A stretch of DNA of 64,000 nt from Bacteroidota bacterium (GTDB lineage Bacteria > Bacteroidota > Ignavibacteria > Ignavibacteriales > Ignavibacteriaceae). A program made the translations under genes and the position numbers. Every line of letters starts with the position of its first letter. Positions within the stretch are counted from its first letter, which is position 1. The stretch is taken from the NCBI GenBank assembly GCA_021824145.1, contig JAKALM010000002.1, positions 124,001-188,000 of the forward strand, read 5' to 3'. Shown in pieces: positions 13,372 through 34,387 of this stretch. The notes under the pieces are model-generated. The model did no database searches, was not told where the DNA came from, and saw only the letters and a program-made list of their open reading frames with translations.

Positions 13372-13731
13372 TTATTCACCTGCTTTTTTACTCGTAACAT
13401 ATTTTATTATCTCAGCTTTTTCCATCGTAATCAATCCGCCGCTATTTGCGCGTTCAAAAATATCGTTAAGTATCGATAAGAAGGAATCTATCTTACTAAC
13501 TTCATCCACAATTTCAATTACTATCGGCATGTCTTCAGACAATCTTAATATTTTTGAAGTGTGTATTCTGCTTGTCCTGCCAAACCCCATAATACCTTTA
13601 AAGACTGTGGTGCCTGCAAGCCCGGCTTTTCTGGCTTCATTAACAATCTTTTCATAAACGGGGATATGATCAATATGATCAGACTCGCCGATGAAGATCC
13701 GAATTAATTTTGCATCACCTTTTAATTCCAT
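13372..13731 (-). CDS. DUF190 family protein, partner of the fluoride channel
   Basis: A 119-residue soluble protein of the DUF190 family (PF02641). It has KLIRIFIGESDHIDHIPVYEKIVNEARKAG-style beginnings and the core GLAGTTVFKGIMGFG, followed by LSEDMPIVIEIVDE. The fold resembles PII-like ferredoxin-fold regulators. These proteins are repeatedly found beside crcB and are presumed to assist or regulate fluoride export; the biochemical role is not established. I chose ATG 13731 because GGAGG lies just upstream; a TTG at 13758 would add nine residues overlapping crcB. Its start is one base from the crcB stop, so the two are translated from one mRNA. Confidence 0.9.
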   Translation of the reverse strand: MELKGDAKLIRIFIGESDHIDHIPVYEKIVNEARKAGLAGTTVFKGIMGFGRTSRIHTSKILRLSEDMPIVIEIVDEVSKIDSFLSILNDIFERANSGGLITMEKAEIIKYVTSKKAGE

Positions 13732-13732
13732 T

Positions 13733-14116
13733 TTATCCTCCGGATATAATTTTCCCAATTAAATATGCAATGAACACCGCGCCAATCGAAAGCACTACGT
13801 TCAAAATAATATTTGTTCCCGCTAAAAGAAATTCCGAATCTCTCATCAAATTTATAGTTTCAAAAGAAAAGGTTGAAAATGTTGTTAAGCTTCCACAGAA
13901 GCCGGTAGTCAGCAAGATCCTCATTTGCGGACTTATTAATTCATTTTTGTCCAAATAAAACATTACAAATCCAATTATAAAGCTGCCTACAATATTTACA
14001 GCAAGGGTTCCATAAGGCAGAGTTGAAGGAAGAAATTTATAAACAACGTTTGTAACCCAGTATCTTGCAGCACCTCCAACAGCCGCTCCAATTGTAACTA
14101 TGATATAATTTTGCAA
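13733..14116 (-). CDS. crcB: Fluoride channel CrcB/FluC
   Basis: A 127-residue, four-helix membrane protein that forms dual-topology dimers and lets toxic fluoride leave the cell. Hallmarks are GAAVGGAARYW near the start, the conserved Asn41 in LAVNIVGSFIIG, and the TM3 break GFCGSLTTFSTFS (72-84), which carries the pore Phe residues and the central Na+ site. The start is TTG 14116, supported by AGGAGT eight bases upstream; no ATG fits. The leader on the same strand holds a fluoride-riboswitch-like motif. DUF190 follows at once. Symbols crcB and fluC are used for the same protein. Confidence 0.95.
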   Translation of the reverse strand: MQNYIIVTIGAAVGGAARYWVTNVVYKFLPSTLPYGTLAVNIVGSFIIGFVMFYLDKNELISPQMRILLTTGFCGSLTTFSTFSFETINLMRDSEFLLAGTNIILNVVLSIGAVFIAYLIGKIISGG

Positions 14117-14189
14117 TTTGATTACTCCTAAAATTATTTATTATTGTTACAAGGTATGAGTTATTAGTCCAAGAATTTAAGGACGGTTT

Positions 14190-14249
14190 CTGCAAAAGCA
14201 GTATCATCAAAAAATTTGCTATTAAGATGATAAGGCGAACTCCATCGCC
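14190..14249 (-). promoter_or_regulatory. Fluoride-riboswitch-like element upstream of crcB (5' half only)
   Basis: Reading the minus strand from 14249, the sequence GGCGATGGAGTTCGCC matches the 5' stem-loop of the crcB (fluoride) riboswitch class. It is identical, as I recall, to the block in known Bacillus examples. Next come a TATCATC/GATGATA hairpin (14202-14232) and a small CTGC-TTTT-GCAG hairpin (14190-14201). The usual 3' part with a GATGACTCC-type strand that closes the pseudoknot is not seen, so this may be a divergent or decayed aptamer. The element lies 117 bases before the crcB start, on the correct strand. Confidence 0.42.
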
Positions 14250-14306
14250 GGTACAAAATATTTAAATGAATATCCTAAATCAATATTAGGTTTATGAATG
14301 ATTTAT

Positions 14307-26059: not shown

Positions 26060-27277
26060 ATGAAAATGTCCGGAGGTCCTGCTTCAATTAATTTCAAAAT
26101 TACATTAATTATTATTGCAGTATTTATTGCTAGTGGAACGCTTTATTACACTCAAAAACTTGTTCAGGAATTACAAACAAAAGAAAGGCAAATTGTTCAG
26201 CTATACGCTAAAGGAATTCAGTATGTAGCCAATACAACAAGCACTGATGTTGATATTACTTTTTTATTTGAAAATATTTTAAAACCAATTGATTTCCCCC
26301 TTATTAACAGTGACCCGAATAATAAAGTTACAATTTTAAATAAGGCAGATATTAAAGATGTACGTAATATTAATTACGATACAACATTATCTAAAGAAAA
26401 ACTTGAAAAGTTCTTTGAGGAAAAAATAAAGGAGATGGATCAAGTTCATAAACCAATTGAAGTTACTTACAAAGATTCTGTCGTACTCCAAAAAATCCAT
26501 TACGGTGATTCTGATTTAATTATACAATTAAAATATTATCCCTATCTGCAAATCTTAATTGCAGCATTATTTATAATAATTGGTTACATAGGTTTTAGTA
26601 ATATTAAAAGAAGCGAGCAAAGCAATATTTGGGTAGGAATGGCAAAAGAAACTGCTCATCAATTTGGAACTCCAATATCGAGTTTAATGGGTTGGGTTGA
26701 AATGTTAAAACTAAGTTACTCAAATCCAGATAAAGTTTTAGACATTACCGAAGAAATAAATAATGATGTAGAAAAACTAAATAAGATAACATATCGTTTT
26801 TCTAAAATTGGCGCCACTCCCGAATTAAAAGTAAAAATTATTTATGATGAAATAAAAAAAGTTGTAGATTATTATCAACGAAGACTTCCGCAAACAGGAA
26901 GAAATATTGAAATTTCAATTGAAGGAGATAAAGAAGTTTGTTCCGAATTAAATTCAGAATTATTTGAGTGGGTGATTGAAAATCTTATTAAAAATGCTTT
27001 GGATGCAATTGAAATAAAAGAAGGAAAAATTAATTTCTTAATAAAGACATTAAAAAGTAATGTTGAAATTGAAGTTACAGATAATGGAAAAGGCATTGAG
27101 ATGAAAAGGAGAAAAGATATTTTTCGTCCTGGATATAGTACTAAGAGACGCGGCTGGGGACTTGGTTTAAGCTTATCAAAAAGAATTGTTGAAACTTATC
27201 ATAATGGAAAAATATTTGTTAAATCTTCTACACAAAATCAAGGCACAACATTCAAAATTATTTTGAAAAAAGTTTAA
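26060..27277 (+). CDS. Orphan membrane sensor histidine kinase
   Basis: A 405-residue kinase. Two membrane helices (about 13-30 and 163-180) frame a periplasmic sensor of about 130 residues without a recognised fold. The cytoplasmic part starts directly with the phospho-acceptor helix [18 protein letters not shown] (His200) and has no HAMP or PAS domain. The ATP-binding domain shows the N box [15 protein letters not shown]1 VTDNGKGI, an F box [12 protein letters not shown] and G2 [11 protein letters not shown]. No response regulator gene adjoins it, so its partner lies elsewhere. The start at 26060 follows GAGGAATT. Its 3' end overlaps the convergent nadA by four bases. Confidence 0.92.
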
Positions 27278-28218
27278 CTCATTTCAAGCATTTTTTCTAT
27301 CGGTTTTAATGCTTTTTCAATTGTATCTTCAGGTAATATAATTTCGGGAACTTTGTTTTTCATGCAAAGGTATAACTTTTCTAATGTATTTAATTTCATG
27401 TAAGGGCATTCATTGCAATTACAATTATTCTCTGGTGGTGCAGCTATAAATATTTTTTCTGGAACGGCTTTTTCCATTTGATGAAGAATTCCAGATTCAG
27501 TAGCCACAATATATTTCTTACCATTATCTTCAATTACAAATTTTAAAAGCTTGGTTGTTGAACCGATAAAATCCGCACGAGCTAAAACCGCTTCTTCACA
27601 TTCTGGATGTGCTATTATTTTTGCATCCGGAAATTTTATTTTAAGATCTATTATTTTACGTTCACTAAAAGTTTCATGAACAATACATGAACCATCCCAT
27701 AAAAGCATTTCCCTTCCAGTTTTTTTCATCAAATATTTACCAAGATTTCTGTCTGGAGAAAATAAAATTGGTTTATCTTTCGGAATTTGGTTGATAATTT
27801 TTTCAGCGTTGCTTGAAGTACATATAATATCACTTAATGCTTTAACATCTGCAGAACAATTAATATATGAAATGGCTAAATGATTAGGATATTTTTCTCT
27901 AAATGATTTAAATATTTCTGCCGGACAGCTATCTGCTAAAGAACATCCTGCTTCTAAATCCGGTAATAAAACTTGTTTGTTTGGGTTTAATATTTTAGCT
28001 GTCTCTGCCATAAAATGAACACCTGCAAAAACAATTACATCAGCATCGGTAGATTTTGCTTTCCTAGCTAATTCCAAACTATCGCCTACAAAATCAGCTA
28101 AATCTTGAATCTCTGATTCTTGATAATAATGAGCAAGAATAACTGCGTTCATATCTTTTTTCAAACGGTTTATTTCAACTTCAAAATCAATATCCGTATT
28201 AATATTCGAACTAATCAT
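27274..28218 (-). CDS. nadA: Quinolinate synthase A
   Basis: Condenses iminoaspartate with dihydroxyacetone phosphate to quinolinate in NAD synthesis; it is a [4Fe-4S] enzyme of the cytosol. The 314 residues have the family start [24 protein letters not shown]. Three iron-sulfur cysteines lie in the expected regions: [25 protein letters not shown], and the [10 protein letters not shown] cluster near the C-terminus. Other landmarks are [14 protein letters not shown] and [15 protein letters not shown] precedes ATG 28218. nadB and nadC are not in this window, so nadA is separate here. Confidence 0.97.
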
Positions 28219-28358: not shown

Positions 28359-28373
28359 TGGCATATTAATTGT
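28359..28373 (+). promoter_or_regulatory. Sigma-54-type promoter of candidate small RNA 1
   Basis: TGGCATATTAATTGT matches the -24/-12 consensus TGGCAC-N5-TTGC at the invariant GG and at TTG with the correct spacing. Only the final C of TTGC and one base after TGGCA differ. Expected start of transcription is near 28385. No rpoN gene is in this window. Confidence 0.55.
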
Positions 28374-28384
28374 GAAATCACTTA

Positions 28385-28462
28385 TGAAATAGTTTTAAGC
28401 ACATTCCCTCATAATTTTCAATCTATACTGGCGAGTTGATAAAATACTCGCCAGTCCCACTT
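28385..28462 (+). ncRNA. Candidate sigma-54-driven small RNA 1
   Basis: A predicted transcript of about 75 bases begins about 12 bases after the -12 box. It carries AAATAGTTTTAAGCA (28387-28401), which is repeated in the second unit, then an unpaired TTCCCTC (28404-28410). It closes with a perfect 10-bp hairpin: ACTGGCGAGT (28427-28436) with ACTCGCCAGT (28446-28455), 9-base loop. The bases after the hairpin are CCCACTTT, a weak tail, so some read-through is likely. The only frame is ATG-AAA-stop at 28384. I infer a regulatory RNA; the C-rich motif could pair with ribosome sites. Confidence 0.5.
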
Positions 28463-28572
28463 TAAATAGACAATTTAATAAGTAGAATTGTTCCACAAAG
28501 TAAAATTTACCTGTAACCTTGAAAAGTTATGATAAGAAAGGCTTAAAAAAATAAAAAATCAAAGATTATTAA

Positions 28573-28587
28573 TGGCACACCAATTGA
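28573..28587 (+). promoter_or_regulatory. Sigma-54-type promoter of candidate small RNA 2
   Basis: TGGCACACCAATTGA has a perfect TGGCAC -24 half and TTG at the -12 position with exact spacing; only the final C of TTGC is replaced by A. Expected start is near 28599. Confidence 0.6.
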
Positions 28588-28598
28588 AACATAAATAG

Positions 28599-28688
28599 TG
28601 AAAATAGAAAATAGTTTTAAGCATAGCATCCCTCCACAAGAATGTCACTCAAACTGCCGGATAATCCCTCATCCGGCAGTCCTTTTTT
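28599..28688 (+). ncRNA. Candidate sigma-54-driven small RNA 2
   Basis: A predicted transcript of about 90 bases, related to the unit 214 bases upstream. It has the same AAATAGTTTTAAGCA (28609-28623), then CATCCCTCCAC with CCCTCC at 28630-28635, an unpaired stretch, and a perfect terminator. The terminator is ACTGCCGGAT (28653-28662) with ATCCGGCAGT (28671-28680), followed by CCTTTTTT (28681-28688). The terminator loop itself carries a second CCCTC (28666-28670). No start codon with a usable frame is present. Promoter, transcript and terminator all agree on the plus strand, opposite to nadA and aroB. I infer a trans-acting RNA with C-rich seeds. Confidence 0.6.
28653..28688 (+). terminator. 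Rho-independent terminator of candidate small RNA 2
   Basis: A perfect 10-bp GC-rich stem with an 8-base loop is followed by CCTTTTTT. The T run is on the plus strand only, which sets the direction of transcription. It also sits 69 bases from the 3' end of aroB, which runs the other way. Confidence 0.85.
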
Positions 28689-28756
28689 AAACAGAAAATT
28701 TTTTTGATTTTAATTTTAAGATTTGATGATGGTTAATATTATTCAAATGAGTGATA

Positions 28757-29851
28757 TTATGAAATTAGATCAAGCATTACATTGATACTTGAAATTATTT
28801 CACTTTTTCCTGCTTCAACATCTACTAAAATTTTGCCTATATCAGAAATCAAAACAAATTTTATCTTTTCATTTCTATTCTTTTTATCATGCAGCATTAT
28901 GTCGATCAAAACCTCTTTATTCATCTCTTTCAATTTATTTGAAAGCTTTATTTTTAATGGCAAGTTAATCAGCTTATCAAATTTACTGTTTTTTAGTAAT
29001 CCAATTTTGTTAGATAAAATAAGTGCACATATAATTCCAGCCGTTACAGCTTCGCCATGTTTTATATTAAAATTTAAGTTTGTTTCAAAAGCATGAGCAA
29101 AAGTATGACCTAAATTTAAAATTTTTCTTAATCCAGATTCTTTTTCATCTTGCGATACAACTGCGGCTTTGACTGATGCAGATATTGCAATAACATCTAT
29201 TAATATTTTATCATTCAACTCATAAATATTTTCTAAATTCTTTTCTAAAAAAGAAAAAAATTTTGGTTCGGTTAAATAAGCATACTTAATTATCTCTCCC
29301 AAACCAGATTTCAATTCACTATGCGGCAATGATTTTAAAAAATCTGTATCAATTAAAACAAATTTAGGCTGATAAAAAGCGCCAATCATATTTTTTTTCT
29401 TTTCGAAATTTATTCCAGTTTTACCTCCGATTGAGCTATCGACTGCAGCTAAAAGAGTTGTAGGAATGTGGATTAATTGAATTCCTCTCATAAAAGTAGC
29501 AGCTACATATCCGGCTAAATCACCAGTTACTCCTCCTCCAATTGCAATTATTGCAGAATCTCTTCCAAAATTATTATTTATCATATATGCATAAATCTTA
29601 TTCAATTCAATATAAGATTTAGATTCTTCACCAGATTTTAAAGTATAATAATTTACTTTGAAATAATTAGAATTTATTTCACTTCTAATAATATTGGAGT
29701 ATATCTTTTCGACCTTTTCATCGACTATAACAAGAAGATGTTTATTAATTTTATATTTTTTTAATAACTCGTTTAAATTACTTACAATAGATTTTCCAAT
29801 TAAAATGGGATAAGAATTTTCTTTCAAATCAACAATAACTTTTTTTGCCAT
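28757..29851 (-). CDS. aroB: 3-dehydroquinate synthase
   Basis: Converts DAHP to 3-dehydroquinate, the second step of the shikimate pathway; it uses NAD+ and a divalent metal. The 364 residues include the NAD-binding block GGGVTGDLAGYVAATFMRGI and PTTLLAAVDSSIGGKTGIN. The metal-binding residues lie in SGLGEIIKYA, LNLGHTFAHAFE and HGEAVTAGI (Glu and two His). It follows aroK by 23 bases on the same strand, so the two are one transcript. The start is ATG 29851, with GGAATTC just before it on the coding strand. Confidence 0.97.
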   Translation of the reverse strand: MAKKVIVDLKENSYPILIGKSIVSNLNELLKKYKINKHLLVIVDEKVEKIYSNIIRSEINSNYFKVNYYTLKSGEESKSYIELNKIYAYMINNNFGRDSAIIAIGGGVTGDLAGYVAATFMRGIQLIHIPTTLLAAVDSSIGGKTGINFEKKKNMIGAFYQPKFVLIDTDFLKSLPHSELKSGLGEIIKYAYLTEPKFFSFLEKNLENIYELNDKILIDVIAISASVKAAVVSQDEKESGLRKILNLGHTFAHAFETNLNFNIKHGEAVTAGIICALILSNKIGLLKNSKFDKLINLPLKIKLSNKLKEMNKEVLIDIMLHDKKNRNEKIKFVLISDIGKILVDVEAGKSEIISSINVMLDLIS

Positions 29852-33703: not shown

Positions 33704-34387
33704 ATGATAGAAAATAATGATTTTCTGAAATATGTTCCTATTTTCTCTGAGTTAGATGATAGTACTCTTGATCAAATATCAAAATTAGGAGTAAGAAAAA
33801 GCTTCACAAAGGACTCAGTTGTGCTTTTTGAACATGAAACTGGTTCTGCTCTATTTGTTATCATCGATGGAAAAGTAAAAGTTTCTAGAGTTAGCGACGA
33901 TGGAAAAGAAGTTATCCTAACAATTCTTGGAGAATCTGATTTTTTTGGTGAAATGGCAATTTTAGACGGTCAATCACGTTCGGCTAATGTAACCGCAATG
34001 GAAGATTCCGAATTATTTATTATTCAAAGAAGTGAATTCTTAAATCTACTTCACATCCACCCAGAAATAGCTGTTGCTTTACTTCAGGAATTGACACAAA
34101 GATTACGTTCTGCCGATATGAAAATTAAATCTTTATCATTAAAAGATGCAGAAGGTAAAGTTGCTACTGTTATACTTCAGCTTGCAGATGATATAGGAAA
34201 AATCAAACAAGGAACTGTTGAAATTGAAAAACTTCCATATCAACATGACTTAGCTAATATGGCTGGAACTTCTAGAGAAACAATTTCTAGAACTTTACAT
34301 TCCTTTGCTAAAAAAGGAATGGTAGAACTTGATGGATCCAGGTTACGAATTCTTGACTATGAAAAATTTAAAGAGATGTATAGTTAG
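33704..34387 (+). CDS. Crp/Fnr-family transcription regulator
   Basis: A 227-residue DNA-binding regulator. The cyclic-nucleotide-type sensor domain (about 10-125) contains FGEMAILDGQSRSANVTA, close to the phosphate-binding cassette of cAMP receptors, so a cyclic nucleotide ligand is plausible. A long dimer helix (about 125-150) leads to the winged helix-turn-helix (about 165-225), whose recognition part is LANMAGTSRETISRTLHSF. No FNR-type cysteine cluster is present, so it is not an oxygen sensor of that kind. It may be in one transcript with the PHP protein 24 bases downstream. Confidence 0.93.
   Translation: MIENNDFLKYVPIFSELDDSTLDQISKLGVRKSFTKDSVVLFEHETGSALFVIIDGKVKVSRVSDDGKEVILTILGESDFFGEMAILDGQSRSANVTAMEDSELFIIQRSEFLNLLHIHPEIAVALLQELTQRLRSADMKIKSLSLKDAEGKVATVILQLADDIGKIKQGTVEIEKLPYQHDLANMAGTSRETISRTLHSFAKKGMVELDGSRLRILDYEKFKEMYS

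Follow-up and report, generated by a model that had tools for sequence, protein, structure and literature searches.

LhrC1-5 of Listeria monocytogenes are multicopy small RNAs (sRNAs) that are under two-component control and for which Hfq is dispensable (PMC4132741). A comparable strategy appears in Xanthomonas, where sX13 is Hfq-independent, presents C-rich loops and has targets with G-rich motifs near their starts, in a group without a consensus ribosome site (PMC3771888). In Enterobacterales, the gene for the sRNA GlmY adjoins a histidine-kinase gene of the QseE/QseF system, and QseF sites lie upstream of it, as does an overlapped sigma-70/sigma-54 promoter (PMC8745638). Sigma-54-dependent, activator-controlled and sometimes redundant sRNAs are also known as Qrr in Vibrio (PMC10162802). 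Within the phylum Bacteroidota, the FopS/GibS RNAs of Bacteroides, studied together with RbpB, form a multicopy family with a single-stranded seed and a terminator, in a host group described as using RRM proteins (PMC11697453). Here we describe a locus that shares features with each of these systems. It lies in a 64,000-nucleotide stretch of an Ignavibacteriaceae genome (GenBank assembly GCA_021824145.1, contig JAKALM010000002.1, positions 124,001 to 188,000; hereafter the window), where two units at 28359-28691 are, on comparative evidence, tandem paralogous sRNA genes of one undescribed Ignavibacteria family, close to an orphan membrane histidine kinase gene (Table 1). As in LhrC, redundant C-rich motifs occur both in a single-stranded segment and in the terminator loop.

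A reading of this DNA made from its letters alone (the sequence-only reading) had picked out two -24/-12 boxes, a shared 15-base block, CCCTC or CCCTCC motifs and 10-bp hairpins, all of which are in place. The block AAATAGTTTTAAGCA has one exact copy in unit A and one in unit B and is found nowhere else on the plus strand of the window. Each unit ends in a perfect 10-bp stem (28427-28436/28446-28455 in unit A and 28653-28662/28671-28680 in unit B). The second hairpin has the loop CCCTC and the U tract (CCTTTTTTAAA) ascribed to it, and the U tract of unit A is weak (CCCACTTTAAA). Relative to shuffled sequences, the fold z-scores are -3.6 for unit A and -2.4 for unit B. A covariance search, which the same reading had proposed, matched both units and placed them in a family that spans the order. 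Genome-wide, model R1 returned unit B at 75 bits (E=1.4e-13) and unit A at E=3.6e-6, and the wider model R2 returned unit A at E=1.9e-8. Because unit A had been left out of the R1 training alignment, its recovery indicates that A and B are related, in line with the idea of sister RNAs.

The promoter pair alone is not beyond chance, as the window holds two -24/-12 matches where 1.4 are expected, and the case therefore rests on comparative data. Both units match TGGCAYN5TTG, a GG(-24)/GC(-12)-type box, exactly. The strict form TGGCAN6TT lies 16-17 or 24 bp upstream in 25 of 30 distinct units, with box variants at the same place in the other five. A strict sigma-54 box occurs no more than 135 bp away in 62 of 68 units, compared with 0.97% of 2,793 control windows. 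In addition, conserved sequence sets in about 13 nt past the -12 element, which is the predicted start position for sigma-54. The genome encodes rpoN (E=3.4e-60) and 20 strong sigma-54 (AAA+) activator genes. The promoter and the RNA are about as certain as sequence allows.

The family extends well beyond the window. By DNA similarity among 40 related genomes, most members of the genus carry the locus, as do several genomes from the wider family, often as two tandem units. A pattern built on the RNA body, with no promoter letters, matched 28 contigs among 84,980 species genomes, all labelled Ignavibacteriales, Ignavibacterium or unnamed Bacteroidetes metagenome-assembled genomes. R1 matched 54 of 391 genomes of the class, and R2 matched 39 of 396 genomes of the phylum. 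Judged by promoter and/or synteny, true members occur in each of the three families sampled in the order (f1, f2 and f3) and also in f13, another family of the class, and three f2 genomes that the scans had missed proved to carry the sRNA when they were approached through synteny (3/3). In further families of the class, and outside the class, the stretches examined after the kinase held no sRNA. R2 matches outside the class (G535, G568, G605, G646) and in family f24 (G150) lack promoter, kinase and CCCUC and are about as numerous as expected by chance, which marks them as chance terminators. Two weak matches within the class (G182, G201) were rejected, and three loci without a promoter (L135 of G317, L189 of G037 and L199 of G246) are doubtful members. 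The family is nearly universal in the order, which argues for strong selection. Its usual state is a single copy, and the tandem pair is the exception; this, the order-wide range and the tie to a histidine kinase go beyond the sequence-only reading. Tandem copies are also seen in other genera (L042, L096, L098, L103, L106), and the near identity of the L042 pair suggests repeated duplication, not one old event. Rfam 15 covariance models gave no match to the window or to diverged members, even at a relaxed threshold, and searches of the open-licence literature found no sRNA published for Ignavibacteria. Judged from sequence, the units represent a true and so far undescribed sRNA family that spans the order and is controlled by sigma-54.

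The terminator hairpin is maintained by compensatory change. With 27 members aligned by MAFFT in the usual way, without fitting to a model, 10 of 11 pairs show compensatory changes and 95.9% of cells are paired, a result reached by none of 500 shuffles, and pairing drops sharply when the helix is slid. In a wider alignment of 65 members, which is model-fitted and hence leans towards the structure, all 11 pairs show compensatory changes, with 165 double changes and 97.1% pairing (0/500 shuffles), and the slid controls collapse. The stems vary and the loop is mostly constant as GCCCUC or UCCCUC. The C-rich motif is present in the hairpin loop of 62 of the 68 units and in the single-stranded part of 60, where CCCUCC is conserved together with a downstream AUGACACAC, AGUAACACAC or AUGUCAC element. 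Relatives also keep the GG/TTG positions of the promoter, and the claim that the layout is under selection is supported. With these positions and the hairpins conserved and rpoN present, two of the findings that the sequence-only reading had named as refuting it do not occur. Many diverged members have an extra 5′ hairpin whose sequence is unrelated between members. The longer sRNAs (about 125-165 nt) of f13 members L122, L132, L113, L123, L124 and L130 repeat (U)ACCCUUAU before CCCUCC, and L122 and L132 have a long 5′ stem of different sequence in each. In f3 members L125-L127 and L133, the first CCCUCC lies inside a perfect stem-loop (AUAGUUU...AAACUAU), so that both motifs are loop-presented. 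An open reading frame of 50 amino acids overlaps unit A. Indels in the 5′ block between f1 members and the compensatory hairpin changes indicate that the family has no conserved coding frame, in line with the sequence-only reading. An independent promoter, a non-coding body and an intrinsic terminator, the features expected of a trans-acting sRNA gene, are all present.

The constant neighbour of the sRNA is the kinase, which adjoins it in f1, f2, f3 and f13; in the window, as in the f2 loci, the two point the same way. The kinase gene is single-copy, is carried by 155 of the 198 genomes sampled across the phylum, and probably predates the sRNA. With QseE/QseF/GlmY as a precedent (PMC8745638), a pathway from kinase through activator to sRNA is the natural inference, and the adjacent kinase is the likely input sensor. 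A palindrome, a putative activator-binding enhancer, lies 74 bp upstream of the unit B -24 box and downstream of unit A. Of 75 listed units, 32 have its core GGTAAWNWTTACC, which overlaps TTACNNGTAA, at a distance of 72-76 bp ahead of the -24 box, and another three have it at 84-85 bp, a helical turn farther away. The carriers are nearly all single or downstream (B) units of Ignavibacteriaceae, and across 13 genomes of the genus the combined palindrome and promoter pattern matches this locus only. Together with rpoN, this conserved site, to which binding is predicted, agrees with the suggested RpoN-dependent activator.

We consider it probable that these genes encode a two-component, sigma-54-induced and Hfq-independent sRNA that represses mRNAs through pairing of CCCUC with GAGG(G) near ribosome sites. 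A signal would be sensed by a two-component system, probably the orphan kinase, whose pathway would activate an NtrC-type activator; this protein would bind the palindrome and activate transcription by RNA polymerase-sigma-54 from the -24/-12 promoters. The predicted transcripts of 80-90 nt would begin with the conserved UGAAAAUAG block and run to the intrinsic terminator. Without Hfq, their C-rich seeds may then pair with GAGG(G) translation-start regions of selected mRNAs and block ribosomes. A search for PF17209 (Hfq) gave no match in this genome, the same search being positive in 5 of 14 controls. The genome encodes CsrA (G000 C27, 565849-566004; L248) and a single RRM-domain protein (G000 C26, 222483-222692; L247), which, in a genome lacking Hfq, make up an unusual set of RNA regulators.

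Table 1. Coordinates of the sRNA locus and of its flanking genes in the window.
Feature	Position	Strand	Remarks
Orphan membrane histidine kinase	26060..27277	+	Pfam HATPase_c and weak HisKA below cut-off; syntenic partner of the sRNA
nadA (quinolinate synthase)	27274..28218	-	divergent from the sRNAs
Unit A sigma-54 -24/-12 promoter, TGGCATATTAATTG	28359..28372	+	strict box in 62/68 family members
Unit A sRNA	28385..28466	+	predicted start ~28385; R1 and R2 model matches, fold
Unit A block AAATAGTTTTAAGCA	28387..28401
Unit A CCCTC	28406..28410
Unit A hairpin	28427..28455		weak U tract
Putative enhancer-binding-protein site	28499..28516	.	AGTAAAATTTACC core 28499-28511 overlapping TTACCTGTAA 28507-28516
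Unit B sigma-54 -24/-12 promoter, TGGCACACCAATTG	28573..28586	+
Unit B sRNA	28599..28687	+	predicted start ~28599; R1 match, covariation, fold
Unit B block AAATAGTTTTAAGCA	28609..28623
Unit B single-stranded CCCTCC	28630..28635
Unit B ATGTCAC	28642..28648
Unit B terminator hairpin	28653..28680		CCCTC in loop (28666-28670); U tract
aroB (3-dehydroquinate synthase)	28757..29851	-	convergent with the sRNAs

The flanking genes do not appear to belong to the system. Because nadA separates the kinase from the sRNA in some relatives and is missing there in others, it is best regarded as a neighbour, and because aroB is convergent and no same-strand gene follows the hairpin, the sRNA is not a leader or attenuator. 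Elsewhere in the window, a fluoride riboswitch (RF01734, just over its gathering score) lies at 14148-14258 on the minus strand and precedes two frames of that strand, a crcB-like gene for a fluoride channel (13733-14116) and a small neighbouring open reading frame (13372-13758).

Several results weigh against the proposed pathway and its mode of action. Among 346 sampled genes, GGAGG lies near the start of only 14, GAGGG of three and GGAGGG of one. Predicted duplexes between the sRNA and these mRNAs are only marginally better than shuffles, and exact complements of the conserved 12-nt stretch in the genus comprised, among the matches listed, only the sRNA gene itself. Binding of GGAGG sites, as the sequence-only reading had it, remains a prediction; its sRNA pair, sigma-54 promoters, activator and selected layout are supported. 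The loop CCCUC has been lost in unit A of the window. No palindrome lies directly upstream of unit A or of the f2, f3 and f13 members, so that unit A would need a downstream enhancer or another route and in the other families the activator may be another protein or a diverged one. Since the kinase is present across the phylum, elsewhere also in genomes that lack the sRNA, the two are linked by synteny only. Finally, no partner activator could be pinned down among the candidates examined: L071 adjoins a hybrid kinase and kdp genes and so is not an orphan, and L073, an orphan of the receiver type near pseudopilin genes, has nothing that ties it to this promoter. On the other hand, GAGG stands at the ribosome-site position of 37 of the 346 genes, compared with two in the control interval, where GGAGG does not occur at all. 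Shine-Dalgarno use is thus partial but real and confined to a minority of genes, and CCCUC seeds could for this reason select a limited set of mRNAs, in the manner of the C-rich loops of LhrC and sX13 (PMC4132741, PMC3771888). As a separate observation, a Crp/Fnr-type regulator gene in the window (33704-34387, plus strand) carries AGAGGG at the ribosome site, a feature that relative L032 shares (AAGAGGGATT) and that is not conserved further out; it is a possible sRNA target.

The same data can be read differently. The RNA might act as a protein decoy, its loop-presented CCCUC repeats titrating an RNA-binding protein such as the single RRM protein, much as CsrB and RsmZ titrate CsrA through GGA. 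The motif recurs at exposed sites and the stem sequences drift, the f3 and f13 members add a second loop-presented copy or extra ACCCUUAU repeats, the genome has one RRM protein, and no target is clearly better than shuffles. However, most members have two motifs only, with unit A often keeping one, and conservation of the flanking single strand, which covers 25 nt in Ignavibacterium-type members, reaches well past the length of a short protein motif. We know of no bacterial protein that recognises CCCUC. CsrA itself is present, yet the conserved repeat is CCCUC, with one GGA in unit B and none in unit A, unlike the repeated loop GGA of CsrB and RsmZ. We regard a decoy as unlikely, and its full form, in which a sigma-54-induced, order-wide decoy wired to the orphan kinase sequesters a C-rich-binding protein, as a little less likely again; if true, this would amount to a Csr-like circuit built on a new motif. 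Little credence is due to a genuine sigma-54 sRNA that works by another route, be it base pairing away from ribosome sites, service as a sponge for a second sRNA, or modulation of CsrA. The presence of CsrA and the lack of a clear mRNA in the target searches would fit such a route, but GGA is not repeated and conserved, and C-rich motifs elsewhere act mostly at translation starts (PMC4132741, PMC3771888).

It is highly improbable that the hairpins are terminators only, ending aroB on the minus strand or other read-through, with promoters arising by chance. Hairpin B lies about 76 bp past the aroB stop and could work on both strands, but its U tract is on the plus-strand side, and sigma-54 boxes occur in 62/68 members against 1% of controls. 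Moreover, the loop and upstream single-stranded motifs are kept while stems change, and the sRNA sits beside the kinase or nadA in many relatives, several of them without aroB in the fetched stretch. A small-protein gene on the minus strand, with GGAGGGATG read there as ribosome site and start, is almost certainly not the explanation. Although the minus strand does read GGAGGGATGCTATGCTTAAA, indels break the frame between relatives (TTTAAGC, TTTTAAGC or TTTTTAAGC), no gap would separate the ribosome site from the ATG, many members have no ATG after the first motif on that strand, and neither a minus-strand promoter nor a reading frame is conserved.

The family also differs from each of the known systems that it resembles. 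The Ignavibacteria RNAs differ from Qrr in sequence and have no Rfam Qrr match. Qrr sRNAs are Hfq-dependent and function in quorum sensing, whereas the present family occurs in a genome without Hfq. GlmY is reported to protect GlmZ by serving as a decoy for the adaptor RapZ (PMC7073468), and the Ignavibacteria locus, in contrast, includes no activator gene and its RNA is unrelated by Rfam. FopS is transcribed from canonical housekeeping promoters and uses a 5′ seed, R1, with no sigma-54 (PMC11697453). For LhrC, the available part of the source gives LisRK control and reports no sigma-54 promoter (PMC4132741); the Ignavibacteria sRNA has one or two copies beside a kinase, and no homology in sequence is apparent from the Rfam scan. 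sX13 belongs to another lineage and has three stems with 4C/5C loops, and the accessible text states no sigma-54 control (PMC3771888). Since the positions of the promoter, the putative enhancer and the kinase are known to single-base precision, both the signal and sRNA action free of Hfq are directly testable in this phylum. Compared with these systems, the Ignavibacteria locus would join two designs that are usually found apart, namely enhancer-driven sigma-54 induction and targeting through multiple C-rich motifs.
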